64,000 bases of DNA from assembly GCF_022965805.1 (NCBI RefSeq), contig NC_133101.1, forward strand, positions 19,625,054-19,689,053, in the 5' to 3' direction. Source of the DNA: Primulina eburnea. Lineage: Eukaryota > Streptophyta > Magnoliopsida > Lamiales > Gesneriaceae. Under the pieces are notes generated by a model. It had not been told where the DNA came from and searched no databases. It was given only the letters and a program-made list of their open reading frames with translations. A program made the position numbers and the translations under genes. Shown piece after piece: positions 1,939-42,462 of this stretch. Positions within the stretch are counted from its first letter, which is position 1; each line of letters starts with the position of its first letter.

Positions 1939-2200
1939 AGACAATGACTGTTTAGTATATAACTAGTATTAATAATCATCATCTTTTGTAGGTATGATGA
2001 TTATCAAGGGCATCATTTTTTGTAGGCATAATGACTCAGTTTTCTTGTTCTGTTTGTATTATGCTTGGGTATTGTAAATATTTGAAACATGTCTTGTTTA
2101 TAAATAAAACTGAGTGTTTACCCTATGACATAACTATATGATATATATATATATAAATATAGTGCAAGATATGTTCATATTTTATATTTATGTGTTTAGA

Positions 2201-3300
2201 ATGGCGTCTTCACAAAATAGTACTCAAGCCAGAATCAGACAAGAAATTCCCGCTCAAGATGACCACAACTCGGCAACTGGTGGAAATTCCAGAAGCGCTC
2301 AACACAATCCCCCTCAAGAACAAAATGTACAAAATATGTTTGAAATGATGCATCAATTTGTGCAGTTTTGTCAGCAAAATCCACCACGACCTCATGATCA
2401 AGCTCAAGAACACCACATTGAGGCAAATGATCGAGTTCTTGAGAGATTTTTGAGATTCAAACCGCCAAAGTTTGAAGGCAAACCAGATGCGTATCAAGCA
2501 GAATCTTGGCTAAGCAAAATTAACAAAATATTCTCTATTCTAAATTATTCTGAAGAACAAAAGGTGAATTTTTCCACTTATTTATTTGAAGAAGCAGCTC
2601 ACAATTGGTGGCGTACGGTGGAACATAAATGGACAAAGAATCACACCCTAAAAATGTGAGACAATTTTCTGCAAGAGTTCGAAGGTAAATATATAACTCA
2701 AGTTATATTAAATACCCGAGAACGTGAATTTATGGATTTAGTCCAAGGTGACATGACTGTAGCTCAATATGAAGCAGAATTCCATCGTCTTATACATTAT
2801 GCACCACAATACATGGAAGATGAGGTAAAAAAAATGAAAAAATTTGTTCAAGGGTTAAAGCTAGATATTCGTTGGGCAACATTGTCCACAGAAGTTGCCA
2901 GTTATGTCTCTGCTGTTAGTCAAGCTCTACGAGTAGAAGAAGACATCAAGGCACTTCTGAAAAAAGAGGAAGAAGAAAAGAAAATCAGGAAGCCCAACCT
3001 TTTTGAGGATAATAACCGGAAAAGAAAATTTGAAAAGTGAACACAACCAGTCAGGCAAGGAGAAGCTGTCAATGGAAAAGTTCCAAGAAACAACAAAAAA
3101 AATGTGGATATTGTGGATTACCAAATCATGAAGAAGAAAAGTGCTGGAGAAAAGGTGGGAAATGTCTTATTTGTGGAAGTGAGCAACACCGTATTCAAGA
3201 TTGTCCAAAAAGAATGCAGAAGACTCAACCCACAACCAAGCCAAAGATACCTGCTCGATCCTATGCCCTCTTAGGAAACAAAGAGGAGGAAGTTGATCCC
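2201..3300 (+). pseudogene. gag: Element A gag, broken
   Basis: Structural capsid/nucleocapsid protein that packages element RNA. The start is ATG 2201, after an AT-rich noncoding leader. A Gln-rich N-terminus is followed by the retrotransposon gag core (motifs RFLRFKPPKFEG and AAHNWW), then a Lys/Glu-rich coiled stretch and two zinc knuckles of CX2CX4HX4C form (about 3103-3215). Breaks: a TGA at 2657-2659, where related elements have Trp (TGG to TGA), and a frameshift where the first frame stops at 3038-3040 and the knuckle frame continues. The two knuckles are complete, so the decay is recent relative to the motif. Confidence 0.85.
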
Positions 3301-5160
3301 ACTGCAGTCGTAGAAGGTACTGTTACCATATTATCCAGTTCTGCAAAAACTTTATTTGATCCAGGAGCTACTCATTCTTTTATCTCAAAAGTTTTTGTAC
3401 GTAAATTACTACTGTTATCGGAACAGCTACCATATAGCTTCGAAATTAGCTCCCCTTTAGGGACAACAATGATTACTGACATCATTTACAAAAATTGTCT
3501 CTTAAACTTCCAAGAAAAAGAATATCTAGCAGATTTGATTGAATTACGTATCAAGAACTATGATATTATTCTTGGAATGGACTGGTTATTTAGACACCAA
3601 GCCCAGCTCAATTGCTACACAAAAGAAGTTTATCTTCAAACTTCTCATTCAATCTTTTCAAAAGCTAACCCTACCATGGGGATAGTATCAACAGCAGAAG
3701 CTAGGGCTATATTAAGAGACAATGGACAAGGATTTCTAGCTTATTTGATAAATAAGCCAAAAGATCAACTCAAGATCTCAGAAATCTCAGTTGTACAAGA
3801 ATTTCCGGAGGTTTTTCCTGAAGAGATCAATACTTTACCTCCTCAGAGAGACGTAGAATTTTCCATTAAGCTAATACCTGGAGCACAACCCAGATCTAAA
3901 ACTCCATACCGAATGGCACCTTCAGAGTTAAAAGAATTAAAACTTCAATTGCAAGAGCTCATGGACAAGAAATATGTCCGGCCTATTACATCTCTTTGGG
4001 GCGCTCCTGTATTATTTGCCAAAAAGAAAGATGGAACTCTAAGGATGTGCATTGATTATCGAGAGCTTAACAATGTTACCATCAAAAACAAATATCCTCT
4101 ACCACATATCGAAGAATTATTTGATTTCTTACAAGGGTCTCAAGTATATTCAAAACTTGATTTGAGACAAGGATATTACCAATTGAGAATTAAAGAGGAT
4201 GACATCTCCAAAACGGCTTTTAATACCCGTTATGGACACTATGAGTTTGTGGTAATGCCATTCGGATTAACCAATGCTCCTGCAGCTTTCATGGATATGA
4301 TGCATCGGATATTTCAACCATTCTTGGACAAATTCGTTGTCATATTCGTAGATGACATTTTGATATTTTCAAGAAGTCATGAGGAACATGCTCAACATCT
4401 ATGATTGATTCTCAAAACTTTGAAAGAACATCAATTGTATGCCAAATTCAGCAAGTGTAAATTTTGGCTAGAAAAAGTGTCCTTTCTTGGTCACTTTATC
4501 TCTAAGAAAGGACTGGAAGTAGATCCTGCAAAAATAGAAGCCATATCTCGTTGGAAACAGCCAACCAACATCACAGAAATTAGAAGTTTTCTCGGCTTAG
4601 CAGGATACTACCGAAGATTCATTAAATATTTTGCGAAAATTGTTGTTCCCCTGACACAGCTAACTCGCAAAGACAACCCTTTCTTGTGGAGTAATGAGTT
4701 TGAGAAAAGTTTTTGCAAATTAAAAGAAATGCTTACAAGTGCACCTGTATTAGCTTTACCAGAAAGGACAGAAGGATTTGTGGTTTACACAGATGCCTCA
4801 AAAGAAGGCTTTGGATGTGTATTGATGCAAAACGATAAAGTTATTGCATATGCATCTAGAAAATTAAAGAACCACGAGTTAAATTATCCCACTCATGATC
4901 TGGAATTAGGAGCAATAGTGTTTGCATTAGCAAAATGGAGACAATACTTGTACGGTTCCACTTTTGATATCTATACAGACCACAAGAGCTTGAAGTATTT
5001 ATTTACTCAAAAAGAGGTGAACATGAGGCAAAGAAGATGGATTGAATTTTTGTAAGATTACGATTGTTCCATTCTTTATCAATCGAGTAAAGATAATGTT
5101 GTGGCTGATGCTTTAAGTAGAAAGATTAGCATGGCTTGTTTGGAAATGAAAGAAGTAAGA
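3301..5160 (+). pseudogene. pol: Element A protease, reverse transcriptase and RNase H, broken
   Basis: The aspartic protease site at about 3358 reads D-P-G instead of D-S/T-G, a change expected to inactivate it. The RT palm is clear: the RLCIDY-like block near 4050, then the catalytic FVDD (Asp codons 4351-4356). RNase H follows, with the TDAS motif near 4790 and a second DHKSLKY motif near 4980. In-frame stops occur at 4402-4404 (TGA, where relatives have Arg CGA, a C-to-T change) and 5053-5055 (TAA in place of Lys). The reading frame is otherwise continuous from the zinc knuckles through RNase H. Confidence 0.9.
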
Positions 5161-6641
5161 GAATGGGTACACATCCATTCACGTGGGCACTTGGCCGGAT
5201 TGAGAATCGAACCTGAATTTCATACCAGAATTAAGCAAATCAAGAATTGGACCAAGAAGTTTCAAAACTCCGTACTGATGCCAATTTCGTCACCAATTCA
5301 CAAGGGATACTATTTTATCATGACCGTATTTGTGTGCCTAGCTCAATGAAAAAGGAAATAATGGAAAAATCACATCAGTCTCCGATCAGCATTCATCCAG
5401 GAGGATCCAAGATGTACCAAGAGATTAAAAAACACTTCTGGTGGAAAGGAATGAAACGAGATATTGCAGATTTCATTTCACAATGCCTATCTTGCCAAAT
5501 GATAAAAGCTGAACATCAAAGGCCAGCAGGTCTTTTGCAACCACTTCCTATACTAGAATGGAAATGGGATCAAATAACTATGGACTTTGTGATCAGATTA
5601 CCCCAACTCCCAGGAGGTTTTAATAGCATATGGGTGATCGTTGATCGCTTGACCAAGTCAGCACATTTCATACCCATAAGTCACAAATATGGGGTGGAAA
5701 AACTAGCTGAACTCTATCAGAAAGAAATTATACGGTTACATGGTATCCTCCCTACCATAGTATCTGATAGAGATCCGAAGTTTACGTCAAGATTATGGAA
5801 AAAACTTCAGGAATGCCTTGGTACCAAATTAAATTTTAGCACAGCAGCGCATCCGCAAACTTATGGTCAGTCTGAACGAACCATTCAAATATTGGAAGAC
5901 ATGCTTCGCGCATGTGTGCTGGATTTTGGGGCAAACTGGGGAAAACATTTGCCTCTAGTTGAATTTTCATACAACAATAGTTATCAATCCTCAGTAAAAA
6001 TGGCCCCATATGAAGCATTATATGGAAGAAAATGTCGCTCTCCTCTTAACTGGGATATGGATGAATGGAGAGGCACAAAGAATGGACAAGAACGAGCAAT
6101 CAGGCCTGACATTATACAAGAAGCTATCGACCAAATACAACTTATCAGGCAACGAATACAAACAGCTCAAAGTCGACAGAAGAGTTATGCAGATAAGAAG
6201 CGGAAATATTTGAAATTTGAAGTCGGAGATTACGTATTATGAAAAGTATCACCAAGAAAAGGCATCAGGCGTACTGGAAAGAAAGGAAAGTTGCATCCTC
6301 GATTTGTTGGACCCTTTGAAGTGATAGAACGAATAGACACTGTGGCTTATCATCTATCTCTACCTGAAAATATCTCTGGCATACATAACGTATTCCACGT
6401 ATCACAATTAAGGAAATGCAAAGTAGACTCATCCCAATTGATTGACCACCAACAGATAGATCTGGAAGATAATCTCACATATGAAGAACAACCTGTGGAG
6501 ATTTTGGACCAAAGAATAAAGGAACTTTGTAGTCGACCAATTCAATTGATAAAAGTCTTATGGAGAAACCAGAACATTGAAGAAGCAACGTGGGAAACAG
6601 AGAAAGATATGATATGTCAATATCCTCACTTATTCCAATAA
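5161..6641 (+). pseudogene. pol: Element A integrase with chromodomain-like C-terminus, broken
   Basis: Integrase inserts the cDNA into chromatin. The frame shifts in the overlap of two readings between 5247 and 5349. The HHCC zinc-binding region lies at about 5373-5515. The catalytic D, D and E occur in MDFV, SDRDPKF and ERTIQILED (about 5580-5900). After a TGA at 6240-6242 the same frame continues through the PRFVGPFEV block into a chromodomain-like tail (about 6490-6641) with VEILDQ and EEATWE motifs, typical of the Tekay type. This tail is thought to direct integration towards heterochromatin in chromoviruses. Confidence 0.88.
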
Positions 6642-8836: not shown

Positions 8837-10732
8837 CAGTAGATCTTCCAAAATCTGTATAACTCTTTCTGACTGACCATCGGTTTGAGGATGGAATGCG
8901 GTACTGAATAATAACTTGGTCTCCATCGCTGCATGCAGACTCTTTCAAAAGGATGAAGTAAATCGCGGGTCTCTGTCAAAAGCAATAGATACTGGTATCC
9001 CATGCAGACGAACTATCTCCCGAATATATAACTCTGCATACTGTACCATGGTGAATGTCGTCTTAATAGGTAGAAAATGCCCTGATTTCATAAGACGATC
9101 AACTATCACCCAAATGACCTTTAATCCTTTAACAGTCTTAGGCAATCCCACAACAAAGTCCATGGTGATATTATCCCATTTCCACTCGAGAATAGGGAGT
9201 GGTTTCAATTTTCCCGCTGGCCTTTGATGCTCTGCTTTGACTTGCTGACAAGTCAAACACTCAGATACATATCTCAGAATGTCCCTCTTCATGCCTGGCC
9301 ACCAATACAACAACTGCAAATCTCTATACATCTTTGTACTACCCGGATGTATGGAATATGGTGTGTCATGGGCTTCCTTCATAATAAGACCTCTCAAAGA
9401 ATCGTCACTAGGAACCCATAAACTGTCTCAATAACGGACTAAACCATCCACCACTGAATATAAATTCCGGCCCTTGGCTTCATCTCTAGCTCTCTACTTT
9501 TGCAAATGCTCATCAGTGGACTGTCCATCACGGATTTTATCTCTCAATGTCGATTGGACTGATAATGTGGCAAGATTAGGGGCCTCGCCCTTGGCATATA
9601 TTGTAAGCTCAAACCGCTGTATCTCGGACTGCAACGGTATTTGGAGTGATAACTGCTGCTTTTCTACTCAACGCATCTGCCACTACATTAGCTTTCCCCG
9701 GATGGTAGCTAATGTCACAATCATAGTCCTTTACCAATTCGAGCCATCTGCGCTGTCTCATATTCAACTCCTTTTGGGTGAAGAAGTATTTCAAGCTTTT
9801 ATGATCAGTGAATATTTTGCACTTCTCCCCATAAAGGTAGTGTCTCCAAATTTTTAGCGCAAAGACTATTGCTGCAAGCTCAAGATCATGAGTAGGGTAG
9901 TTCTTTTCATGAATTTCCAACTGTCTTGACGCACAAACGATAACTCGGTCGTTTTGCATAAGAACTGCGCCCAAACCAAGCTTAGAAGCGTCGGTATAAA
10001 GAACATACTTCCCTTGCCCTGATGGCATAGATAACACTGGTGCTGATATCAAGGCTTGCTTCAACTTGTCAAAACTTTCTTGGCACTCGGGTCCTCAAAT
10101 AAATTTTGCATTTTTCTTTGTCGAGGCGGTCATGGGTACCGCTATAGATGAGAACCCCTGAATAAACTTGCGATAGTAGCCAGCTAGTCCCAAGAAACTG
10201 CAAATCTCGGTGACGCTTTTCGGTACTGGCCACTCTTTCATTGCTTCCACTTTACTTGGATCGACTTCCACTCCACTACTGGAAATGATGTGGCCTAGGA
10301 ATGCCACTCTATCAAGCCAAACTCGCACTTACTGAATTTTGCATAAAGATTTCTGTCTTGAAGTACTTGCAGTGCGGTCATCAAATGACTGCTATTCTCC
10401 TCTCTGCTCTTGGAATGGATCAATATGTCATCAATGAAGACAATAATAAACTGATCCAGATACGGCTGAAATACGCGATTCATGAGATGAATCCATGAAG
10501 ATCGCTGGCGCATTGGTCAACCCGAATGGCATGACCATAAACTCATAGTGCCCATATCTCGTGCGAAACACTGTCTTGTGAACATCAGACTCCTTGACTT
10601 TCAATTGATGGTATCCAGATCGCAGATCGATCTTAGAAAATATCGATGCTCCTTGCAACTGATCAAAAAAATCTTCAATTCTTGGCAGTGGATACTTATT
10701 TTTTATAGTAACCCGATTAAGCTCCAGATAAT
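8837..10732 (-). pseudogene. pol: Element B RT (rest), RNase H and integrase part
   Basis: From right to left: RT with [16 protein letters not shown], then FFDQLQG and the FIDD catalytic motif (within about 10513-10440); RNase H with TDASKLGLG and [11 protein letters not shown] (about 10064-9650); integrase with the HHCC region and the MDFVVGLP motif (about 9397-8950). The frame is broken repeatedly, for example by a 4-bp insertion near 10488 that is absent from the duplicate copy at 19601-19855, and by breaks near 10310, 10090 and 9420. The left edge is the insertion point of element A in the integrase core, so the final catalytic Glu and the C-terminus are not in the window. Confidence 0.85.
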
Positions 10733-12308
10733 TGATAAACATAAAAAATGTACATTAATTAAATGTTTTATAATATAAATTTATAGTTTTTGTTTTATTA
10801 AATGTTTAAATATTATATGTTTTATAATAAATTGTATAAAAAATAAGTTGTTGTGTAATTATAAGTTTTTACTATTTTTACAGGTTCGATAAAACAAGAA
10901 TAACCTTGGCGTTGCAAATGGGATTAAGATGATTCTTGGACCTGTAAAAGGTTGATGATAATATCTACAATATTGGTGACAAGCATGAGATAAAATTCTT
11001 CTCACATTTGGGATTAAATTAAACAACAAATAAAGTTACCGAAGAAATGACAGTTTTACCATGCTCTAGTATTTTGACCATATCTCTCAAATTACTTGGT
11101 CAAATGGTCTGAAAAAAATACGAAAACTAGACAACTCAATTATCCACATGTTTCTTTTTATGTGAAGAAGCAAATTCGGAGAAGAAGATTTTCAAAAGTG
11201 ATGTGTAATATAATATAATATCTTGGAACACCAATAAAGACTTTTGTGTAAAAATAATATTTTATTTGTGGTTGTCTCCCCAAATTTGGCTATAAATAGG
11301 GGTGCATTGTAATGTATTGAGATATCCCTCATTCTATGAACAAATCTTTGAGTTCATAATATTTCTCTCTATATTTTCTCTTTATTTCTTCATTTAAATA
11401 CAATTAGCATGTTAATTTCATATTCAAAGTTTTACACTTTGAATAATGAATAGCTAACTTCCCAAGGTTGAGATGAAAATGTGAAACTCTTGGCATGATA
11501 ATAAGGTTATTAAAAGGTAAGAATCTATGTTTTATATTATTTAATCATTAATTATTGTTTATGTTATATTTATTTTTTTAAGCATTTTTATACCCTACTT
11601 ATAAGTGGGAGTTTTGATTTATTGTTGCTATATGTTACACTAAATTCTTGGAACCATTTAAATGTTAGTTTGGTATTACCAACCATTTAAAGTGGATGCC
11701 TTGATTTATTATATATAAATATATTATAATATTAAATTCTTGGAACCATTTAAATGTTAGTTTGGTTTTACCAACCATTTAACTTGGATTCCTTGATTTA
11801 TTATATATAAATATATTTTAGTAATAATTTATTGGTACCATTTAAATGTTTGTTTGGTTTTACCAACCATTTAAAGTGGGAACCTTGATTTAGTATTTAC
11901 AAATATATATGGCACAATAAATACTTGACCACATTTATAAGTTTTGGTTTATATTATATACTTATAAGATAATAATATATAACATAATATAAATATGATT
12001 ATTTAATATATTGGAACCATTTTATTAAGTGAATTTCAATATTGTTCGTTAATGTTAACTTTATTAAAATACCAAGAGTGGATCATTTAATCTCAACTAT
12101 TTAAATTAAAATTTGAACAATTAAAATTTACCCATTAAAGATTCAAACAATTAAAATTAAAAAGAAACAAAAACAAAAACAAAACAAAAATATATTGTAG
12201 TGGACTTGTAATTACCTTAGCTTCCCCGTGGATACGATATCGGACTCACCGAATTATATTACTTGTGGACAACCTGCTCTTGGGAGTGCAACAATCAAAG
12301 TTACAACA
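10733..12308 (+). repeat. Element C 5' LTR (1576 bp)
   Basis: Near-identical by eye to 19856-21432. A TATA box (CTATAAATAG at about 11291) is followed by a leader. From 11640 to 11900 there are three diverged units of about 115 bp, each with GGAACCATTTAAATGTT, then TTTGGT, then ACCAACCATTTAA. The LTR ends ACAACA just before AGTTTT and the primer site. Confidence 0.88.
11640..11895 (+). repeat. Tandem CCATTTAAATG units inside the C LTR
   Basis: Three units each hold an inverted pair, CCATTTAAATG and ACCAACCATTTAA, separated by TTAGTTTGGT and followed by TTGATTTATTATATATAAATA. The same three units occur in the 3' LTR at about 20763-21015. They lie in the transcribed part of the LTR, downstream of the TATA box. 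Confidence 0.6.
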
Positions 12309-12314
12309 AGTTTT

Positions 12315-12332
12315 TGGCGCCGTTGCCGGGGA
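12315..12332 (+). other. Asp-tRNA primer-binding site of element C
   Basis: TGGCGCCGTTGCCGGGGA begins six bases after the 5' LTR. It is complementary to the 3' end of plant Asp-tRNA, the primer characteristic of Athila and related Tat-branch elements. Confidence 0.92.
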
Positions 12333-12434
12333 AGTATAATTTAATTTCAAATCTATTTAATTTTATTTATATTTTTTTCTTTCTTTGAATTTTTATTGCT
12401 TTTGTGTGTTTTTCTTCTTTTCTTTTGCATTTGC

Positions 12435-14951
12435 ATGAGCATTATTTGGTCACGTACACTTAGTGGTCGACTCATTCGAAATAGCCCTTTATTTTCACAA
12501 AACATGACGGAAGAACCCATCCAAGAAAATGAAGATGAAATTAAATCTCAACATGATCATGATAGGCGAAGAACACTTAGAGATCACATGAATCCTACAC
12601 GTACTAGTGCACCTTCATGTCTAGTTTTTCCCCCTGATGCATCTCATTTCAATTTTAAGCCTGGTACTATCCAACTTTTACCCAACTTTCATGGCTTAGA
12701 TTCTGAAAATCCATACATGCATTTACGAGAATTTGAAGAAGTGTGCAACACATATAATGATCTAAATTGTAGCATGAACACCATTCGACTTAAGCTTTTT
12801 CCTTTTTATTTAAAAGATAAAGCTAAAACTTGGCTACAAAATCTTAGATCAGGATCCATTCGAACTCGGGATGAATTGCAACAACAATTTTTGAAAAAGT
12901 TTTTTCCATCTCATAGAACAAATTCTTTCAAAAGGCAAATCATCACTTTCACTCAAAAACAAGGAGAAACTTTTTATCAGTGTTGGGATAGATATAAAGA
13001 ATTGCTTAATCTTTGTCCTCATCATGGTTTTGAAATTTGGAGAGTTGTTTCTCAATTTTATGAAGGCTTAACACCTAAAGATAGGCAAATGGTTGAATTT
13101 ATGTGTAATGGAACATTTGAAGATAAAGATCCAAAAGAGGCAATTGAGTATCTCGATTCATTAGCTGAAAATGCTCAAAATTGGGACACGATAGGTACAA
13201 TTGAACCATCAAACAAGATTCAATCTCCCACATCTGGTGGAGGTATATATACTCTCAAGGATGAACATGATCTCCAAGCCAGATTTACCTCTTTGGCAAG
13301 AAAAGTTGAGGCACTTGAATTGAAAAAGAATGGTCAATTAAAATCTGTTCAAGAAATTGCATGTCACATCTGTGATACAAGTGATCATTCTACAAAAGAT
13401 TGTCCCACTTTGCCTTCTTTTAAAGAATGTCTCCATGAACAAGCCAATGTTTTAAACAATTTCAAAAGGCCAAATTTTGAACCATTTTCTCAAAGTTACA
13501 ATCCAGGTTGTCGAAATAATCCAAATTTTAGTTGGAGGAATGATAATGCTGCACAATTTTCACAACCACATTTCCAAAATCAACAAAATTTTCAAAATTA
13601 TGCACCTTATGTTCCTCCACCTAAAAGGAATTTGGAAGATATATTGAATTCTTTCATTGCAAAGCAAGAGTCTATCAATACTCAAACTGCTCAAACCATA
13701 ACAGATTTGAAAGATACTCTTGCTAAATTTGCATCTGCACTTAATGTTCATGAAAAAGGTAAATTTCCTTCACAACCACAGCCTAATCCCAAGGATCATC
13801 ATTCACAAACCGGAACTTCTGGAACTCAACCGATGGATCAGGTAAAATCTGTTATTACCCTTCGCAGTGGTAAGGTTGTGGAAAAATATATTCTTGAACT
13901 TTGTGAAGATGATGATAAATCAACTCCAAAGGGTAAGGAAATCGAACCCATAACTTGCGAAGAGGAGGATCAACAGATAGTTCCACCACCATTCCCTCAT
14001 GCATTAAAAAATACAAAAAAATCAAATTTGAATTCTGATATATATGATATTTTTAAACAAGTAAAAGTAAATATTCCTTTATTAGATGCAATAAAGCAGG
14101 TACCATCATATGCCAAATTTTTGAAAGACTTGTGCACTGTGAAAACAAAATTGAATGTGAAAAAGAAAACATTTTTAGCCGAACAAGTAAGTGCAATCAT
14201 TCAAAATAATAATGCTTTGAAATACAAAGACCCAGGTTGTCCTACTATTTCTTGTATTATTGGAGAACGAAAAATTAAAAAAGCATTGCTTGACCTTGGA
14301 GCTAGTGTGAATTTACTTCCATATTCAGTTTATCAAGAACTCAATCTAGGCGAGTTAAAACCTATTTCGGTAACAATTTTACTTGCTGATAGATCTGTTA
14401 AAGTTCCAAGAGGTATGGTAGAAGACGTGTTGGTTCAAGTTGATAACTTTGTATATCCTGTCGATTTCATAGTTTTAGAGACACAACCTATTGAAGCTTG
14501 TAATGCAATTCCTGTAATTTTAGGTCGTCCATTTTTAACAACTTCTAATGCTCTTATAAATTGCAGGAATGGAATAATGAAGTTGTCATTTGGTAACATG
14601 ACCTTGGAGCTTAATGTGTTTAATCTTTGTAAGCAACCACACGACAAAGGAGATGAAAGTGAAAATGAAAATCTTATTGAAACTCTTGTGGAAGAAAACA
14701 TTCAAGAAGGGAGTACTCGTGACCAATTAGATATTTGTTCAATTGATACTGTTAAAGAAAAAATTGAAACTGATCTTGATGATTTTATTAGGTATCACCC
14801 GTTACCAGGAACAGAAAAAGAATTTGAGGCGAAATATGAGAACAAAGACGAACCACCCATATTGGAGTTAAAAACCTTGCCAGAAGAATTGAAGTATGCA
14901 TTTCTTGGAGAAGATGAAACATATCCGGTGGTAATTTCTTCTAAACTATAA
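12435..14951 (+). CDS. gag: Element C gag and protease
   Basis: One open frame of 838 codons from ATG 12435; a second candidate start is ATG 12504. The gag core (NFHGLDSENPY, LFPFYLKDKAKTWL, CPHHG) lies at about residues 75-240. A single zinc knuckle CHICDTSDHSTKDC lies near 13360. A Gln/Asn/Pro-rich linker follows, then a retropepsin with active site D-L-G-A-S (about 14292) and the closing ILGRPFL motif (about 14518). It ends at TAA 14949-14951 in the same frame as the following RT segment, so this stop probably interrupts a single gag-pol polyprotein. Athila elements normally have one long gag-pol ORF. The catalytic residues of gag-pro look intact. Confidence 0.88.
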   Translation: MSIIWSRTLSGRLIRNSPLFSQNMTEEPIQENEDEIKSQHDHDRRRTLRDHMNPTRTSAPSCLVFPPDASHFNFKPGTIQLLPNFHGLDSENPYMHLREFEEVCNTYNDLNCSMNTIRLKLFPFYLKDKAKTWLQNLRSGSIRTRDELQQQFLKKFFPSHRTNSFKRQIITFTQKQGETFYQCWDRYKELLNLCPHHGFEIWRVVSQFYEGLTPKDRQMVEFMCNGTFEDKDPKEAIEYLDSLAENAQNWDTIGTIEPSNKIQSPTSGGGIYTLKDEHDLQARFTSLARKVEALELKKNGQLKSVQEIACHICDTSDHSTKDCPTLPSFKECLHEQANVLNNFKRPNFEPFSQSYNPGCRNNPNFSWRNDNAAQFSQPHFQNQQNFQNYAPYVPPPKRNLEDILNSFIAKQESINTQTAQTITDLKDTLAKFASALNVHEKGKFPSQPQPNPKDHHSQTGTSGTQPMDQVKSVITLRSGKVVEKYILELCEDDDKSTPKGKEIEPITCEEEDQQIVPPPFPHALKNTKKSNLNSDIYDIFKQVKVNIPLLDAIKQVPSYAKFLKDLCTVKTKLNVKKKTFLAEQVSAIIQNNNALKYKDPGCPTISCIIGERKIKKALLDLGASVNLLPYSVYQELNLGELKPISVTILLADRSVKVPRGMVEDVLVQVDNFVYPVDFIVLETQPIEACNAIPVILGRPFLTTSNALINCRNGIMKLSFGNMTLELNVFNLCKQPHDKGDESENENLIETLVEENIQEGSTRDQLDICSIDTVKEKIETDLDDFIRYHPLPGTEKEFEAKYENKDEPPILELKTLPEELKYAFLGEDETYPVVISSKL

Positions 14952-16412
14952 AGTAATCAAGAAGGTAAATTAGTTGATATGCTTAAAAGACATAAAAATG
15001 CAATTGGTTGGACACTAAAAGATCTTAAGGGCATTAATCCACTAATTTGCACTCACAAAATTCACTTAGAAGAAAATGCTAAAACATCTCAACAACCACA
15101 AAGAAGATTAAATCCACACATGAAAGATGTTGTGAAAACTGAAGTTCTCAAACTACTTGATGTTGGAATTATCTACCCTATTTCTGATAGTAAGTGGGTA
15201 AGCCCAACACAAGTAGTTCCAAAAAAATCTGGCATCACAGTGATAAAAAAATGAAAAAGGTGAATTGTTAACAAGTCGAGTCCCATCTAGTTAGCGGATG
15301 TGTATTGATTATAGAAAATTAAATGATGCCACTAGAAAAGATCATTTTCCATTACCATTTTTGGATCAAATTTTAGAAAGAGTAGCAGGTCATTCCTACT
15401 ACTGTTTTCTTGACGGATATTCAGGCTATTATCAAATTCCCATTGCACTCGAAGATCAAGAAAAAACTACATTCACAAGTCCTTTTGGAACATTTGCATT
15501 CAGAAGGATGCCATTTGGTTTATGCAATGCCCCAGCAACATTTCAAAGATGTATGCTAATCATTTTTTGCGACATGGTTGAAAACTGTTTGGAGATTTTT
15601 ATGGATGATTTAACTGTTTTTGGGAGTACATTTGATAATTGTCTTGAAAATTTGGAAAAAAGTTTTAAAAAATGTGAGGAAAAAGGTCTTATTTTAAATC
15701 GGGAAAAATGTCATTACATGATTACTTCTGGAATTGTTTTGGGACATATTGTGTCATCTCATGGAATTGAAGTTGATAAAGCAAAAGTTGATGTCATTGC
15801 CAATTTACCTCCTCCAAAAACCATTAAAGAAATTCACTCATTTTTGGGACATGCTGGATTTTATAGGAGGTTTATAAAGGATTTTAGTTTAATCTCTAAA
15901 CCCATTTGTAACCTCTTAACAAAAGACAGTGCATTTGAGTGGACTCAAGAATGTCAAAATGCTTTTGATAAAATCATTCGACATTTAACATCAGCTCCTA
16001 TCATGCAACCTCCTGATTGGTCTTTACCATTTGAAATCATGTGCGATGCGAGTGATTATGCAGTCGGTGCAGTATTGGGTCAAAGAAGAAACGGTAAGCC
16101 TTATGTGATATATTATGCAAGTAGAACTTTAAACAATGCTCAAATGAATTATTCTACAACTGAAAAAGAACTACTTGTTGTAATATTTGCATTAGATAAA
16201 TTTCGTTCTTATTTGATTGGATCAACAACTATTGTGTTTACTGATCATTCTGCTATTAGATATTTGTTGACCATAACAGGATGCAAAGCCACGACTGATA
16301 CGATGGATTTTGTTGCTCCAAGAATTTAACATTGTAATCAAAGATAAAAAAAGGAACCGAGAATGTCGCAGCTGATCATTTATCGAGACTAGCAACAGGA
16401 TCATCTTGTGAA
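14952..16412 (+). pseudogene. pol: Element C reverse transcriptase and RNase H, broken
   Basis: The RT N-terminus (GWTLKDLKGINP, about 15005) continues in the gag frame to a TGA at 15252 within an A-rich stretch, where the frame shifts. A TAG at 15292-15294 replaces the Trp that precedes the MCIDYRKLND block (TGG to TAG). From 15298 RT is open, with catalytic FMDD near 15600, followed by RNase H with MCDASDYAVGAVLG (about 16039) and TDHSAIRYLL (about 16240). Shortly after 16270 the frame is lost again and the RNase H end is read in other frames up to the integrase start. At least three separate lesions are needed to explain it. Confidence 0.88.
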
Positions 16413-17753
16413 ATGGCACAAATTGATGATAATTTTCCTGATGAACATTTATTTTCAGTTACTACTATACCTTGGTTTGCTAACATAGTAAATTTTCCTG
16501 TGACAGGAAAAATGCCACCGCAATGGAGTTCCCAAGATAAAAGAAAATTTCTGAATGAGGTAAAAAACTTTTATTGGGATGATCCGTATCTATTCAAGTA
16601 TTGTCCAGATCAAATTTTTCGACGTTGCATACTCGACAATGAGGTTAGTAGTGTCATTAAATTTTGTCATTCAGACGCATGCGGAGGACATTTTTCTTCA
16701 AAGAAAACAGCTGCAAAAATCCTGCAGTGTGGATTTTATTGGCCCACTTTGTTTAAAGACACCCACGAAATCTGCAAGATCTGTGAAAATTGTCAAAAAT
16801 TGGGTGCGATTTCAAAAAGAAACATGATGCCTTTGAATCCTATCATTGAAATTGAAATATTTGACTGTTGGGGAATTGATTTTATGGGACCTTTTCCACC
16901 GTCGTTTGGATACTTGTATATTTTAGTTGCAGTTGATTATGTTTCCAAGTGGATAGAGGAAATTCCATGTCGAACAAATGATCATAAAATCGTCATCAAA
17001 TTTTTGAAAGAAAATATTTTTAGTAGATTTGGAATTCCTCGAGCCATGATAAGTGATGGGGGAACTCACTTTGTTAATAAACCATTTGCTTCATTAATGA
17101 AAAAATATGGTATTACTCACAAAGTAACTACTCCTTATCATCCTCAAATAAATGGACAAGTTGAATTAGCTAATAGGGAGATAAAGCAAATTTTGTAAAA
17201 AACTGTTAACTCAAATAGAAAAGATTGGTCTCTGCGACTTAATGATGCACTTTGGGCATATCGAACAGCTTTTAAAACATCACTGAATATGTCTCCCTAT
17301 AGGTTGGTTTATGGAAAACATTGTCATTTGCCTGTGGAATTTGAACATAAAGCTTATTGGGCGATCAAAACTTTTAATTCAAGCATGGATGAGGCCATCA
17401 AATTGCGTAAATTGCAACTTAATGAACTTGATGAACTCAGAAATGACGCGTATGAGAATTCAAGGATTTATAAAGCAAAAATCAAATCATTTCATGATAA
17501 AATAATTTTTAGAAAATCTTTTGAGATTGGTAAAAAAGTTTTTCTTTATAATTCTCGACTTCACATATTCCCAGGAAAATTACGATCAAGATGGACAGGC
17601 CCATATATTGTAAAACATGTGTATCCTTATGGAGCTGTGGAAATTGAAAATCCTAAAAATGGTGATGTTTTTAAAGTAAATGGACAAAGGCTTAAACCAT
17701 TTTTAGAAAATGAAATCTTTAAAGAAGAGTTTATTTCCCTTTCCGATCCTTGA
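16413..17753 (+). pseudogene. pol: Element C integrase, one premature stop
   Basis: Zinc-binding residues lie in HSDACGGH and CKICENC (about 16668-16790). The catalytic acidic residues are in GIDFMGP (about 16876), ISDGGTHF (about 17050) and the Glu of [11 protein letters not shown] (about 17160). A TAA at 17196-17198 interrupts the frame, which resumes unchanged and runs through the [10 protein letters not shown] region to a natural stop at 17751-17753. There is no chromodomain, as expected for Athila/Tat rather than chromoviruses. The accessory ORF follows about 170 bp downstream. Confidence 0.88.
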
Positions 17754-17925: not shown

Positions 17926-18351
17926 ATGGATGAAATTCTCTCAAAAATTTGTAAATATTTTCCCCCTGTTTCTGAAAATGTTCTAAGAAAAATTTATGCA
18001 GGAAGGTGTGAAAGATTGAGATTATTAATGCAAAAAGTAATTCCAGAAGATATTCGTCTTGTAATAGAAGCTAAGGTCCGATTAGGAGGAGAAGTTCCGC
18101 AATCATTGCTCATTCGGTGTTTACCTGGATTAGGAAAAAGCACTTATGCGAAAAAACGAAGGGCCAAAAGGTTAGGGGTTTGTCATAAGTGTGCAAGATG
18201 GACTTGTGACACACGATGCAGATCTTTGGGATGTGTTTCCAATAACAGAGAAGATAAAATTGATTTCATTAAGAATGGGCTGAGTAAGGAGTCTTTAGAT
18301 AACATCTTATTGACTCTTGAGACGCATTCTAGTGGACACTGTGTATATTGA
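17926..18351 (+). CDS. Cysteine-rich basic protein resembling carlavirus C4 zinc-finger nucleic-acid-binding protein
   Basis: An intact 141-residue ORF from ATG 17926; the frame is open further upstream but without another ATG. The N-terminal half is helical, Leu- and Arg-rich. A highly basic patch at residues 71-82 (KSTYAKKRRAKR) leads straight into a cysteine cluster: C86-x2-C89, C94, C98-x4-C103. The order, Tyr-Ala-basic-Arg-Arg-Ala, then CHxC, then a TRC...C pair, followed by an Asn and a Phe-Ile, is the pattern known from the small 3'-terminal nucleic-acid-binding proteins of carlaviruses (Carla_C4 family), which bind nucleic acid and act as silencing suppressors or transcription modulators. 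The spacing between the Cys pairs is shorter here. It lies downstream of pol in sense orientation and is undamaged although pol is broken. The homology is by eye only; an unrelated zinc finger is possible. Confidence 0.6.
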   Translation: MDEILSKICKYFPPVSENVLRKIYAGRCERLRLLMQKVIPEDIRLVIEAKVRLGGEVPQSLLIRCLPGLGKSTYAKKRRAKRLGVCHKCARWTCDTRCRSLGCVSNNREDKIDFIKNGLSKESLDNILLTLETHSSGHCVY

Positions 18352-18686
18352 ACTTCTCCGTTTATGGAAACAATTCCAAGATGAGCGTCATCTTAATAGT
18401 CTTGGGAATCCGACTAAAAAAGACCTTGTTTGCCAATTTATAAGAAAATTGGATGGGAAGCATATCCTCGACTCATAGAAGGCGTTGAAGCCATTTCTGG
18501 ACGTAAAACCAGAGGAAAATTGTGAGCCACAATCACACTACTGTTTATATGCATGTGTGTCATTATTGTTTTTACTGTTTATTCTGTTTACAGCTGTGAC
18601 CCATTGTTTTGTCATGATAACATATTACCCCTATAAAATCTCTCATCTTTCTCTGTATTTTCGCAGACCAAAAAGAAAGTAAAAAC
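18352..18686 (+). promoter_or_regulatory. Region before the LOG copy: TATA-like box and 3' splice-site-like tract
   Basis: This 335-bp stretch holds no convincing gene. A short frame (about 18314-18478) overlaps the end of the cysteine-rich ORF. A frame at 18479-18682 codes for a hydrophobic, membrane-like segment but lacks a usable ATG. TATAAAAT lies at 18632-18639, about 50 bp before the LOG ATG. A pyrimidine-rich tract ending TATTTTCGCAG (AG at 18665-18666) looks like a good plant 3' splice site, 20 bases before that ATG. LOG could therefore be expressed from an internal promoter or from a spliced LTR transcript, as proposed for env-like genes. Both readings are inference. Confidence 0.4.
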
Positions 18687-19324
18687 ATGGCTGGATCCTC
18701 TACACAAACATTGAAAAATATTTGTGTATTTTGTGGGTCGAGTCTTGGTAAAAATGAAGTGTTTGTAGAAGCAGCGAATAAACTTGGAAAGATATTGGCT
18801 GAGAGAAAAATTCACTTGGTATATGGGGGAGGTAATATTGGGTTAATGGGATCTGTTTCAACATCTTCTCATCTTGGAGGTAGTCAGGTTTTGGGTATTA
18901 TTCCTACAGCTCTTGCTGAAGGAAATATTACAGGTGTTATGATTGGGGAGGAATTAAAAGTTTCTTCTATGTATGAAAGAATCATAAAAATGATTGAAAA
19001 TTCGGATGCTTTTATCGCACTACCAGGTGGTTTTGGTACATTAGAGGAAATTTTTCGTACTGTTTCTTGGGCACAACTTAATATCCATAATAAACCTATG
19101 GGATTGTTGAATATCAATATTATTATGACAGTTTGTTGACATTTCTTGATAAAGCTGTGGAACATAATTTCATTTCAGAAAATTCACGATGGATGCTCAT
19201 CTCTGCTTCGACTGCCGACCAATTAATTGATGATTTGGAAGCTTTTGTTCATAATCCTGATCCGATGATAGCAAAGATCAACTGGTCGCAATCAAGCAGT
19301 AAGAAAAGAAAGTTGGATCATTGA
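18687..19324 (+). pseudogene. LOG: Captured LOG-type cytokinin-activating enzyme, intronless, one frameshift
   Basis: LOG enzymes cleave cytokinin riboside 5'-monophosphate to the active free base plus ribose 5-phosphate in the cytosol. From ATG 18687 the protein opens with ICVFCGSS, then has GGGNIGLMG at residues 47-55 and the family signature PGGFGTLEE at 113-121. The conserved Arg of the active site is present (R98 in MYER), but the Lys two residues on is Ile. Near 19116-19125 (codon 144) a few bases are missing relative to the family and the frame shifts. The rest of the protein (LDKAVEHNFI onward) continues to TGA 19322-19324, ending in a basic SKKRK tail. The total, about 212 codons, matches the full family length. 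Plant LOG genes normally have several introns, so this uninterrupted copy points to capture from an mRNA. It lies between the cysteine-rich ORF and the 3' end of element C in sense orientation. Confidence 0.88.
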
Positions 19325-19465: not shown

Positions 19466-19600
19466 ACAAACTTAAAAAAAAATTAAAAAATAATAATATT
19501 ATTTTATAATAAACTCATGTTTATTGCTTGTATCTTTGTAATTTTTGCAAAAATATCATACATTACATATTTGAAAGGTTTAAATTAGAAAATGTATTAC

Positions 19601-19855
19601 ACGCGATTCATGAGATCCATGAAGATCGCTGGTGCATTGGTCAACCCGAATGGCATGACCATAAACTCATAGTGCCCATATCTCGTGCGAAACACTGTCT
19701 TGTGAACATCAGACTCCTTGACTTTCAATTGATGGTATCCAGATCCCAGATCGATCTTAGAAAATATCGATGCTCCTTGCAACTGATCAAAAAATCTTCA
19801 ATTCTTGGCAGTGGATACTTATTTTTTATAGTAACCCGATTGAGCTCCAGATAAT
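19601..19855 (-). pseudogene. Duplicate fragment of element B RT directly before the C 3' LTR
   Basis: Almost identical to 10473-10732, the B sequence that flanks the 5' LTR of C, up to and including the ATAAT target-site copy. Differences are a 4-bp insertion in the 10-kb copy, one A fewer in a homopolymer here and a few substitutions. It codes on the - strand for RT residues around FMDLMNRV and [13 protein letters not shown]. It occupies the place where the polypurine tract of C should be. Confidence 0.88.
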
Positions 19856-21432
19856 TGATAAACATAAAAAATGTACATTAATTAAATGTTTTATAATATA
19901 AATTTATAGTTTTTGTTTTATTAAATGTTTAAATATTATATGTTTAATAATAAATTGTATAAAAAATAAGTTGTTGTGTAATTATAAGTTTTTACTATTT
20001 TTACAGGTTCGATAAAACAAGAATAACCTTGGCGTTGCAAATGGGATTAAGATGATTCTTGGACCTGTAAAAATTTGATGATAATATCTACAATATTGGT
20101 GACAAGCATGAGATAAAATTATTCTTACATTTGGGATTAAATTAAACAACAAATAAAGTTACTGAAGAAATGGCAGTTTTACCATGCTCTAGTATTTTGA
20201 CCATATCTCTCAAATTACTTGGTCAAATGGTCTGAAAAAAATACCACAACTAGACAACTCAATTATCTACATGTTTCTTTTTATGTGAAGAAGCAAATTC
20301 GGAGAAGAAGATTTTCAAAAGTGATGTGTAATATAATATAATATCTTGGAACACCAATGAAGACTTTTGTGTAAAAAATAATATTTTATTTGTGGTTGTC
20401 TCCCCAAATTTGGCTATAAATAGGGGTGCATTGTAATGTATTGAGATATCCCTCATTCTATGAACAAATCTTTGAGTTCATAATATTTCTCTCTATATTT
20501 TCTCTTTATTTCTTCATTTAAATACAATTAGCATGTTAATTTCATATTCAAAGTTTTACACTTTGAATAATGAATGGCTAACTTCCTAAAGTTGAGATGA
20601 TAAGGTGAAACTCTTGGCATGATAATAAGGTTATTAAAAGGTAAGAATCTATGTTTTATATTATTTAATCATTATTTATTGTTTATGTTATATTTATTTC
20701 TTTAAGAATTTTTATACCCTACTTATAAGTGGGAGTTTTGATTTATTGTTGCTATATGTTACACTAAATTCTTGGAACCATTTAAATGTTAGTTTGGTAT
20801 TACCAACCATTTAAAGTGGATGCCTAGATTTATTATATATAAATATATTATAATATTAAATTCTTTGAACCATTTAAATGTTAGTTTGGTTTTACCAACC
20901 ATTTAACTTGTATTCCTTGATTTATTATATATGAATATATTATAGTTTTAATTTATTGGTACCATTTAAATGTTTGTTTGGTTTTACCAACCATTTAAAG
21001 TGGGAACCTTGATTTAGTGTTTACAAATATATATAGCACAATAAATACTTGACCACATTTATAAGTTTTGGTTTATATTATATACTTATAAGATAATAAT
21101 ATATAACATAATATAAATATGATTATTTAATATATTGGAACCATTTTATTAAGTGGATTTCAATATTGTTCGTTAATGTTAACTTTATTAAAATACCAAG
21201 AGTGGATCCTTTAATCTCAACTATTTAAATTAAGATTTGAACAATTAAAATTTACCCATTAAATATTCAAACAATTAAAATTAAAAAGAAACAAAAACAA
21301 AAACAAAACAAAAAGATATTGTAGTTGACTTGTAATTACCTTAGCTTCCCTGTGGATACGATATCGGACTCACCGAATTATATTACTTGTGGACAACCTG
21401 CTCTTGGGAGTGCAACAATCAAAGTGACAACA
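19856..21432 (+). repeat. Element C 3' LTR (1577 bp)
   Basis: Matches 10733-12308 with few differences by eye. It ends GACAACA, followed by ATAAT (21433-21437), the second copy of the target duplication, after which the RT of element B resumes. The TATA-containing segment CTATAAATAG recurs at about 20414. Confidence 0.9.
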
Positions 21433-22193
21433 ATAATCGATGCAAAGACGCATGCTACCATCTTTCTTTTTCACAAATAATACCGGAGCGCCCCATGGAG
21501 AGTAACTAGGGCGAATGAAACCCTTGTCTAGCAATTCTTGAATTTTATCTTTCAATTTTTTCATTTCGGCTGGTGCTAGACGATAAGGTGATTTTGATAT
21601 AGGAACAGTGCCCGACATTAGATCAATAGAAAACTCTACTTCATGGTCGGGTGGAATGCCAGAAACGTCTTCGGGAAAGACGCAAGGAAATTCTCTCACA
21701 ATGTCAACATCTTCCAACTTCTGACTGATAGACTCATGTGCAGTGGTGACACATGCTAGATAGGCTTGGCATCCACGCTTAATAAGCTTCCTCGCACATA
21801 GACAAGAGATAATGTGCGGCATTTGCTTGTTTCTCGTCGCCTCAAAAACAAAAGATTTACCACTAGGTGGCCTAATAGATACTGATCGCTGACAAAAATA
21901 AATCGAAGCTCCATTCGCTGATAGTCAATCCATCCCAAGTATAATATCGAATTCAGGCATAGGAAGCACAATAAGATCTGCCCGAAAAACATCTTTAAAT
22001 AAACGAAGCTCCAGATTCTCGACAATCTTAGTCGTGAGCATTTGATCACCGGAAGGAATAGTAACTTTGAAAACCAAACCCATATCTTGAGGAGTAATTT
22101 TCAATCTTTTGATGAAGGTTTCAGGTATGAAGGAATGTGTAGCCCCTGAGTCTAGCAGTGCATAGGTAGCTACACCTAGAATGATGATCCTCC
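21433..22193 (-). pseudogene. pol: Element B protease and start of RT
   Basis: The exon starts on the - strand at 22193, after a 3' splice site. It reads [22 protein letters not shown], so the protease catalytic D-S-G is intact. The frame is open down to a TGA at 21927-21925, which replaces the Trp of the GMDWL motif (TGG to TGA). The linker [11 protein letters not shown] and the RT start ([16 protein letters not shown], then RLCIDY) extend to 21438, where element C is inserted. Protein similarity to element D is high, so B and D belong to the same lineage. Confidence 0.85.
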
Positions 22194-22827
22194 CTGTGGT
22201 GAAAATGTCTTTTAAATATTTTCGTCTTGAAGCTTAAGGATTTGCTATCATTAATTCCAAAGTTATATGAAGATTTCGCGTTGAACTTAAACATTTCTTG
22301 GATAAATTGCACTTTAGTCCCTCAATCTTTTAAATTTGCATTATTGACCCCAAATTTTCGAATTATTGCAATTAAGTCCATAAATTATTTCGATATTCTA
22401 ACTTAGTCCTTGATGTTTCGAGAATTGCATTATTGGTCCTTAAGAATTTCGAAATTGCACATAGGTCCGTTATTTACGAATTTTTGCATCTTGGTCCCTT
22501 TAATTTTCGAAAATTGTAAGTTAGACCTCAAAGTTTCGAAATTGCATAGTTAACCCCCAAAATTCAAAATCCCTCTTAATTATGATTTTCTTTAATTTTG
22601 GCCCTAGAACTTTTTATTTGGAATCATATCATCCTTCACATAAAATAAGGCACAAAAATTTCAAATCATTTTTCTATGGTTTCTAAAATCATCGCTTAAG
22701 TCCAACTAAGTAGAACATGCAACCTAATTTATTCAAGGTTGAAACTTGATCCCAAATCAATTCTAATAACCAATTTAACATTTCATGCAATAATAAGCAA
22801 TATAAAAATGTTAAATGACTAGGTTAC
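22194..22827 (-). other. Putative spliceosomal intron in element B between gag and protease
   Basis: On the - strand the coding sequence reaches CTCATCACAG, then GTAACC (donor at 22827). Coding resumes after TTTTCACCACAG (acceptor AG 22195-22194) with GGAGGATC. Joining at these sites keeps the frame (Thr-Gly-Arg) and yields the protein junction expected for Tekay elements. The 634 bp between are AT-rich and carry no coding similarity. Element D has an intron at exactly the same codon and phase. Splicing is inferred, not shown. Confidence 0.68.
22307..22570. repeat. Nine degenerate 29-bp units inside the B intron
   Basis: Units start with TTGCA or a near variant, then two to four bases, TTAGTCC or TTGGTCC, an AT stretch and TTTCGAAA. 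About nine copies cover 264 bp. The units are diverged, so this is an old minisatellite. It is one reason the B intron is about three times as long as the D intron. Confidence 0.7.
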
Positions 22828-23927
22828 CTGTGATGAGTGTAGTGTCTGCCTCTTCCTCAGCTTCCTCGGCATTCATAACATAAGCTCGGGCCGTGATAGC
22901 TGCTTTCCTTTGGACAGTCATTGGCTTGGTGTCCATCCTCCTTGCAGTAGAAACATTTATAAGATCCCCATTCACATTTGCCAAGGTGAAAACGGTTGCA
23001 ATGTTTGCAAGGTTGCCTCTCAGCAGGCTTTGGTGCTCCCGGATTCTGTGGCTTTGGTGGCGCTGGCTTCTTGACTTGACCTTGGGGCTTTTGAGGCCCT
23101 TGAGATTTAGGAGGACCCGTATATGGCTTCTTGTTAGGCTGATTATTATTCTGATACTGTTGCCTCTTACGCTGTAACTCGAAGTCAATGCCCTTCAAAG
23201 ATTGCTCAGCCTGATATGCAAAGGTAACTGCAGTAGCATAATCCCCCGGACGCATGTTCATGACCTTATCCCGAATGGTAGGTCGTAGGCCATCCATAAA
23301 GTGTCTCAGCTTTTCTTCCGCATCTCCAACAATAAGGGGTACAAAGTGGCAACCCCTATCAAACTTCTTCACAAAATCAGCAACAGGTATGTATCTCTGA
23401 AGGAGAGTCATAAACTCCCTCTTTATCCGGCCCCTGACATCCGCAGTAAATTATTTCTCATAGAATTTGGTCTTGAACTGTGCCCAAGTGAGTGTAGCAA
23501 GGTCAACACCATGCTCCACTCCTTCCCACCATAAAGAAGCGTCGTCCCTCAGCAGATAAGTAGTACACCTCACCCGGTCGGCATCTCCCATGTCTAGATA
23601 GCGGAAATGTACTTCTAGGGAACGGATCCAACTCTCAGCAGCAAATGGATCGGTAGTGCCAGAAAATTCCCTCGGCGCTAGCCTCCGGAACTGATCATAA
23701 ACGTCGCGCGGTGGCCTAGGTGGCTGCTCTAGAAGCTTCTACTGTATCTGTTGTAACTGCTGCTGCTACAACTGTTGCTCGAAGAGACGAGCCATACCCT
23801 CTAATGCACGAGTAGTAGGATCCCCTGGAGGAGGGGGTGGTGGTGGTGCATTTCCTTGACTGTTCCCACGATGATTAACACTGTTCTCAGCTTGATTCTC
23901 ATGAATGGGCGCACGTCTAGGAGGCAT
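22828..23927 (-). pseudogene. gag: Element B gag, broken
   Basis: The start is ATG 23927-23925, beginning MPPRRAPIHENQ. A Pro-rich run follows (from GGTGGT repeats at about 23845). The gag core includes RGCHFVPLIVGDAEEKLRHFM (about 23340) and a Pro/Lys/Gln-rich linker. The zinc knuckle CFYCKEDGHQANDC (CX2CX4HX4C) lies near 22945, with a Cys/His-containing stretch before it. Several frameshifts separate these parts. The last coding segment ends TTLITG at the intron donor. It is homologous to gag of element D. Confidence 0.82.
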
Positions 23928-40938: not shown

Positions 40939-41164
40939 TATGTTTTTGTAAAGGGTTACACTACTACTGACCACGAGAAGCTCACGAAGTCACATCTTCG
41001 GTCTGTAAGTTTTACTTTTCAGCATTTTATTTAAAGCATGAATTATTTTAACAGCATGCTTCCATGAAATAGTTTACGATCAGATTTTCAGTATTTCAGT
41101 GTTCATTTAAAATAAATTTTAGAATTATGCATGTTAGTTACGTATGGGTTATGTTTGGAACAGT

Positions 41165-42261
41165 ATGCCTCCTAGACGTCAGGTAGGACGCCCGAGAGGG
41201 GGTGGTGTGCACCGTCATGAGAACGGGTTTGATCAGAGACAAGAGAGGCAGACACCTCCTCCTCCTTCTCCTCCTCCTCCTCCTCCTCCTCCACCTCCAC
41301 CTGACATGAATGCCCAGATGCTAGCTGGGATGACGGAGTTCTTCGCACAGTTTGCGGGGAAGAATGCCGCAGCCGCAGCCAGGCCGACAGGGCCCGAGGC
41401 TGTTTATGAGAGGTTTATGAAGATGCGTCCGAAGGAGTTTTCTGGGACGTCCGACCCCATGATTGCCGAGGGATGGATCAAATCCCTCGAGGTTATCTTC
41501 GAGTTCATGGAGCTTGGAGATGCTGACAGAGTCCTATGTGCCACCTACTTATTCAGTGGAGTTGCCCTCTTATGGTTGGAAGGAGCAGCAGTAGCCCTGA
41601 ACTTGGCTACACTAACTTGGATGCGCTTTACGGAGGTTTTATACTCCAAATATTTTGCCGAGGAAGTGCGCACCAGGTTGACCACTGAGTTCATGAGCTT
41701 GAGACAGGGTGATATGACGATTACGGAGTTCATCCGTAAGTTCGAGAGGGGCTGTCACTTTGTGTCCCTGATAGCGAATGATGCCAGAGCTAAGATGATG
41801 CATTTCCTGGTGGGTCTACGGCCGATCTTGCGCCGTGATATTAGGGTGTCTGACCCTACTACTTATGAGATTGCTATCTCCAAAGCCCCAGCCGCAGAGC
41901 AGGATCTGCGGGACATCGAGAGGGATCGCCAAGGCAAGCGCCCAGTACAGGTACCACACCTGCCCTCCTACTCATCAGCATCAGCAGCAGAATAAGAGGC
42001 ATTTTCATGGGCCGCCTAGAAACAGAGGTCAGCAATAGCAGCAGCGGGGACGCCCAGCCCCAAGGACTTTTGAGCACCCAGTCTATCCCAGGTGCTCACG
42101 CCGCCATCCTGGAGCATGCATGTATGGCTCAGGAAAGTATTTCAAGTGTGGCAGTGCAGACCACGTGTTGCTGCACTGCCCTCAGAGGAATCTGCCTACT
42201 CAAGGCAGAGTCTTTGCTCTCCCTGCCGCGGAAACGAACCCGGAGACTATGTTGTTGACAG
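41165..42261 (+). pseudogene. gag: Element D gag, frameshifted
   Basis: The start is ATG 41165 (MPPRRQVGRPRGGG). A Pro run coded by CCT/CTC repeats occurs at about 41258-41303. The gag core follows, with KMRPKEFSGTSDPMIAEGW (about 41426) and FERGCHFVSLIANDARAKM (about 41742). The first frame ends at TAA 41993-41995. Coding similarity passes into another frame near 41930, which has a TAG at 42036-42038 in a Gln-rich stretch (CAG to TAG). The zinc knuckle near 42141 has lost its first Cys (TAT in place of TGT) and keeps the others. The last coding bases before the intron are TTGTTGACAG. Confidence 0.85.
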
Positions 42262-42462
42262 GTACCTTTAAGCTTTAAGTTATTGTTTGAATTTCAGCGT
42301 TTGGGAACCAGAATTAAGATTTCGAACTTAGAACTCCGATAGGATTGCATGCTCTACTCAGTATTATTTTGGGGATTTAAGTTAGAAGAACTCTGGCCTT
42401 TGCATGTCTATAAGTTTAATTCTTGTAGCTATTGGGTTCAACTTAGAGTTCCGATCTTTCAG
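42262..42462 (+). other. Putative spliceosomal intron in element D between gag and protease
   Basis: Coding sequence up to ACAG is followed by GTACCTTTAAG. Coding resumes after CCGATCTTTCAG with GGAGAATTTTTATATC. Splicing joins Thr-Gly to Arg-Ile-Phe and restores the protein found at this place in element B. The 201-bp stretch contains in-frame stops and no coding similarity. Its codon position and phase equal those of the B intron (22194-22827). Elements A and G have no extra sequence here. Confidence 0.7.

Follow-up and report, generated by a model that had tools for sequence, protein, structure and literature searches.

What is a gene of the cytokinin-activating LOG family doing inside an LTR retrotransposon of Primulina eburnea? 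LOG-type enzymes are established to release active cytokinin. The window analysed here is a 64,000-nucleotide stretch of contig NC_133101.1. From its letters alone, the original prediction had placed an intronless LOG gene in sense orientation past pol and ahead of the 3' end of an Athila-like element, within ATAAT duplications, and had proposed that the gene moved with the element; frames, Pfam matches and sequence agree on this placement, with the 3' LTR following LOG.

The LOG-bearing element was recognised from sequence and Pfam domains as an Athila-like LTR retrotransposon on the plus strand, bounded by target site duplications (TSDs) ATAAT at 10728-10732 and 21433-21437. Direct repeats, their ends (TG...CA in the 5' LTR) and alignment define a 5' LTR of 1576 bp (10733-12308) and a 3' LTR (19856-21432). 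A 92-bp tandem repeat is present in 2.9 copies in each LTR (11641-11908 and 20765-21032). Just inside the 5' LTR lies a PBS-like site of the tRNA-Asp type, TGGCGCCGTTGCCGGGG (12315-12331, plus strand), which we take to fit the 3' end of plant tRNA-Asp. This tRNA is named among the primers of non-chromoviruses (PMC6317226). The gag and protease frame runs from stop to stop over 12345-14951 (Retrotrans_gag 64.8 bits; Asp_protease_2 23.3 bits, slightly under the cut-off), followed on the same strand by reverse transcriptase and RNase H in 15295-16329 (RVT_1, RT_RNaseH, RT_RNaseH_2) and by the integrase in 16338-17753, in two frames split at 17196-17198, with rve and Integrase_H2C2 in 16338-17195. 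The Pfam domain order protease-RT-RNase H-integrase is that of Gypsy elements. By sequence comparison, 17199-17750 is the pol C-terminus, common to a diverged P. eburnea subfamily (L109) and to a Rhamnella gene model (P0203), and no Pfam match to a Chromo domain was found in it. Equally, the element frames had no Pfam match to the Athila ORF-1 domain PF03078, which is not required for Athila membership since no more than 16% of such elements possess it (PMC6317226).

The two LTRs differ by 36 mismatches in 1575 aligned sites, a divergence that may date a rearrangement of the flank and not the insertion, because a copy of the 5' flank adjoins the 3' LTR. Positions 10474-10732 are near-identical to about 19600-19855, an antisense RT fragment from the surrounding host element that ends in a third ATAAT directly before the 3' LTR; the gap between LOG and the LTR is about 1.2 kb in other copies. 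This flank copy likely arose by local gene conversion or recombination. An older minus-strand Gypsy-type element, traced by its frames in 8945-10094 and 21370-23450, is split by the LOG-bearing element.

The LOG gene itself spans 18687-19324 on the plus strand and is uninterrupted by introns. Its codons 1-150 match Lysine_decarbox (PF03641) with 85 bits (cut-off 27) and LDcluster4 (PF18306) with 48.7 bits (cut-off 26.3), and its remainder (19121-19321) runs in another frame with 22.9 bits, alone below the cut-off. The single frameshift near 19120 that had been predicted is confirmed by the frames on either side and makes the window LOG a pseudogene; with the upstream ORF also ending early, the window copy of the element is decayed. 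The closest solved relative by sequence is Arabidopsis At2g37210 (PDB 2a33, E = 1.6e-44), and in an intact copy the LOG match to PF03641 rises to 131.3 bits. As predicted, the protein contains PGGFGTLEE and the conserved arginine, which presumably has a role in LOG enzymes. Of the 72 Primulina rows that have a 212-aa frame (two places counted twice), 68 contain PGGFGTLEE. Among 134 LOG-like relatives, PGGxGTxE is present in 119 and absent from 15, and the arginine pattern is present in 128 and absent from 6. Judged by sequence, the LOG cargo would activate cytokinin locally. Both a TATAAAA box (18632-18638) and a CAG acceptor-like site (18664-18666) precede it on the plus strand; TATAAAA precedes LOG in 95 of 100 copies and a CAG lies 15-25 nt 5' of the ATG in 85 of 100. 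A similar TATA-like box and CAG site stand before LOG in L109, and their occurrence in both subfamilies suggests that LOG may be expressed separately.

The original prediction missed a second cargo gene, at 17926-18351 on the plus strand. This ORF passes the cut-offs of two viral Pfam families, Viral_NABP (PF05515, 25.8 bits, cut-off 23) and Carla_C4 (PF01623, 23.1 bits, cut-off 20.9), and is hereafter called NABP. It ends prematurely after 141 codons in the window and reaches 181 aa in intact copies. Three intact copies all passed the cut-off for PF01623 and two of them that for PF05515, the third being 0.8 bit under it.

Searching the genome for further copies, as the original prediction had suggested, revealed an amplified family. 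When LOG-region DNA was compared with the 812-Mb genome, the best 40 of 984 candidate places were scored, and the 39 other than the window showed 95-97% identity. A protein query with an uninterrupted 212-aa LOG homologue (P0001) met no stop in 148 of the 150 places scored, a rate biased because these were the best-scoring of 1464 candidates; a NABP query likewise met no stop in 148 of 150 (the best 150 of 1278 candidates). With up to 3 mismatches allowed, the 36-base spacer between NABP and LOG occurs at 648 sites spread over many contigs, against 0 for the control. Forty chromosome-1 copies were taken from this list of sites with frames disregarded in the choice. All were within 1 mismatch of the spacer pattern, so the sample excludes the oldest copies; within it, the exact 212-codon LOG is kept in 17 copies and missing from 23, and 24 of 40 have a NABP frame that reaches 170 aa or more.

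Twenty copies fetched for holding NABP or LOG contained LOG in every case and full-length NABP in 18, and in 16 a 3' LTR of matching orientation followed about 1.2 kb past LOG. The diverged subfamily L109, represented by one copy, repeats the order pol C-terminus, NABP, LOG; all three frames are open, at 81% (pol C-terminus), 62-64% (NABP) and 66-68% (LOG) identity to the main subfamily, and the L109 NABP has 176 aa and a different end. That LOG moved with the element, as predicted, is thus supported by the spacer at 648 sites and by the pol-NABP-LOG order in two subfamilies. It is highly improbable that LOG was inserted later into one copy or that the element landed beside a host LOG gene: copies were sampled for holding NABP or LOG, so LOG-free elements could exist, yet the spacer adjoining LOG is common to 648 sites on many contigs and the TSD of the element encloses LOG. 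For the window copy, the 648 sites with the adjoining spacer rule out a later LOG insertion.

Sequence searches also found LOG-like and NABP homologues in other eudicot families. Named sources of the LOG-like sequences, known there as sequences, element context aside, include Diplodiscus, Reevesia, Pterospermum, Populus, Parasponia, Paulownia and Xanthoceras. For NABP, 315 homologues reach E 0.01 or better, and among the 120 matches listed the named sources include Populus, Xanthoceras, Rhamnella, Orobanche and Acer. In some gene models the cargo is joined to element genes: P0244 and P0245 of Primulina begin with pol pieces joined to LOG, P0241 of Xanthoceras joins a gag or pol piece to LOG, and P0203 of Rhamnella joins one to NABP. 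A single 90% cluster, P0283 of Pterospermum kingtungense, comprises 327 LOG-like member sequences and another, P0114, comprises 325, sizes that hint at large LOG-bearing families elsewhere. LOG and NABP matches fall on contigs of equal size (8723, 4511 and 2128), which is only suggestive of their being together in other plants; coincidences at 1161, 905 and 1018 are uninformative because such contigs are too short for both genes. Across seven LOG-NABP pairs, in which linkage is shown for two Primulina pairs only, three others being equal-sized contigs and two being from the same species, the distances correlate (r = 0.64, a value reached by 16 of 5040 permutations). The same gene order in the diverged subfamily, the low dN/dS described below and the homologues in other eudicot families identify the pol-NABP-LOG elements as an old lineage that has retained both of its cargo genes. 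The original reading was therefore too narrow, as the cargo is neither recent nor confined to the window element.

Many copies are nearly identical, and intact frames inside so young a family prove little alone. This similarity favours the view that LOG and NABP are passive hitchhikers, captured once and spread in a recent burst, whose frames are intact because the copies are young. Between the two retro subfamilies, dN/dS was 0.21 (0.12-0.32) for LOG, with 0.18 (0.00-0.30) for NABP and 0.08 for the pol C-terminus, values to be read with a dS of 1.2-1.7, near saturation, and a second subfamily represented by one copy. Within the main family, changes private to one copy were compared with changes shared by at least three copies, the shared counts being small throughout. 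In 28 chromosome-1 copies, private changes in LOG were 95:25 nonsynonymous to synonymous (3.8; neutral 2.6-3.6) and shared ones 9:9 (p = 0.016). For the larger sets, 87 of 100 LOG and 71 NABP copies were free of gaps, and removal of two duplicate rows left 85 and 69. The 85 LOG copies, many of them from best-hit lists, gave 140:43 private against 14:20 shared changes (p = 0.00012). For NABP, 27 copies gave 71:14 against 8:8 (p = 0.006), a contrast widened by a private ratio of 5.1 that exceeds the neutral 2.5-3.7, and the 69 copies gave 97:28 against 13:11 (p = 0.023). With shared redefined as at least two copies, p was 0.018 and 0.0006 for LOG and 0.0016 and, in the larger set, 0.1 for NABP. 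Changes common to copies thus include fewer amino-acid changes than neutral. Post-insertion changes look unfiltered and transmitted ones filtered, as would be expected if both proteins aid transposition. This depletion of replacements, and the open frames kept at a dN/dS of about 0.2 by two subfamilies with only 66% LOG and 62% NABP identity, make passive hitchhiking unlikely.

To place the LOG cargo, trees were built with plant and bacterial enzymes. A branch with 97% SH-aLRT separates two Arabidopsis and two bacterial LOGs from all 134 LOG-like relatives, a sample biased because it was found with retro-LOG queries. With 28 of the 134, the separating branch has support of 98/93. On this small sample of host LOGs, the cargo falls on a branch apart from At2g37210 and At5g11950, but a grouping of the 28 with At2g37210 was not rejected (p-AU 0.146). 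The cargo is of the same family as these plant LOG enzymes and differs from them in being intronless, mobile and on a separate branch. An At2g37210 fragment searched against the genome matched the 150 Primulina places scored at 51-54% identity, and these were filled by retro copies. One annotated P. eburnea LOG3-like gene, P0024, was considered as the host LOG gene and rejected, as it belongs to the second retro subfamily. Capture of LOG from an mRNA by template switching is plausible, and the derivation from a plant LOG mRNA would be ancient.

NABP is likely related to the cysteine-rich nucleic-acid-binding proteins (CRP/NABP) of carlaviruses, judging from its domain matches. The likeness lies in PF01623 and PF05515 and in a basic run directly before a four-cysteine finger; the Primulina protein differs in its 181 aa, its cysteine spacing and its carriage by a retrotransposon. 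Its finger, C-x2-C-x4-C-x3-C, is found in 101 of the 120 homologues listed and together with the basic run in 95, and in 14 aligned rows the invariant positions extend well past the finger. For one carlavirus the finger is quoted as C-x2-C-x12-C-x4-C in the available text of PMC8839810, and because this spacing differs we class NABP as a likely relative of the carlavirus CRP and not as one. The spacing, the modest Pfam scores and a scan of IMG/VR with NABP that found no viral relative would all suit a non-viral origin, in which a basic zinc-finger protein of retroelements or plants had converged on a short motif. We consider this somewhat doubtful, as two viral families score above curated cut-offs, with one of three intact copies narrowly under PF05515, and as PF01623 is precomputed for 120 of the 120 matches listed of the 315 homologues. 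The AlphaFold model of NABP has a mean pLDDT of 59, a quality too low for fold comparison.

The window element is a decayed copy of an Athila-like lineage in which pol is followed, ahead of the 3' LTR, by two sense genes, a carlavirus-type NABP and an intronless LOG; in our view the lineage probably keeps them for its replication. NABP would have come from, or together with, RNA viruses, and both genes would have been kept because they help the element to replicate. LOG may yield active cytokinin at the sites of element expression and so favour dividing or meristem cells heading to the germ line, and NABP may bind nucleic acid and thereby weaken RNA silencing or alter host transcription, like viral CRPs; as a joint mechanism we propose this only tentatively, by analogy. 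Silencing suppression is a function that NABP might have by its family membership. Viral CRPs are described as silencing suppressors, and p12 of chrysanthemum virus B is also a transcription factor that causes hyperplasia, according to the available text of PMC8839810 and PMC12172455. At least as tentative is the wider idea of an old eudicot retrotransposon with a host-manipulation module, in which a virus-type silencing suppressor and a cytokinin enzyme would ready cells for transposition. Such a module would condition cells in the manner of gall-forming microbes and viruses, and, if true, this would be a hormone-manipulating selfish element that combines a gene of host origin with one from an RNA virus.

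A report by Steinbauerova from 2011 is said to describe two Athila-like elements with LOGL4-like ORFs. The available text of PMC9289625 cites this earlier report (Steinbauerova 2011) for LOG cargo and itself reports Gypsy elements with a LOG (YgdH) domain from Citrus sinensis and C. clementina and, under a looser filter, Populus trichocarpa. The LOG cargo is therefore not a first case, and the original prediction was mistaken in holding that no LTR retrotransposon with such cargo had been described. The Citrus and Populus elements are likewise Ty3/Gypsy carriers of a LOG-family domain, for which the available text is silent on an NABP partner, on copy number and on selection. The Gypsy elements of Phalaenopsis with an AlkB-type RNA demethylase also retain an extra enzyme ORF, and differ in the enzyme, in an Ogre/Tat-like lineage, in a single cargo domain and in activity shown in vitro (PMC9289625, as far as available). 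Neither a pairing of LOG with a viral-type NABP in a retrotransposon, among titles and abstracts, nor selection evidence for such cargo was found in the open-licence literature, and the available part of PMC7264820 does not mention lysine, cytokinin, lonely or carlavirus. The available text of PMC6317226 calls the function of extra ORFs in plant retrotransposons "rather speculative"; its survey covered ORFs of at least 250 codons, and both LOG and NABP are below this limit. With two cargo genes that are conserved, recognisable and open to activity tests, the question of extra-ORF function becomes testable.

The public P. eburnea gene models P0024, P0244 and P0245, named LOG3-like or LOG6, are members of a LOG-bearing element subfamily, which warns annotators that transposon genes occur among the plant gene models named LOG. 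The window also holds three more Gypsy-type elements on the plus strand, at 2129-6641, 41138-45842 and 51096-55956, and the first two of these have chromodomain-like matches, one just below the cut-off and one above it.
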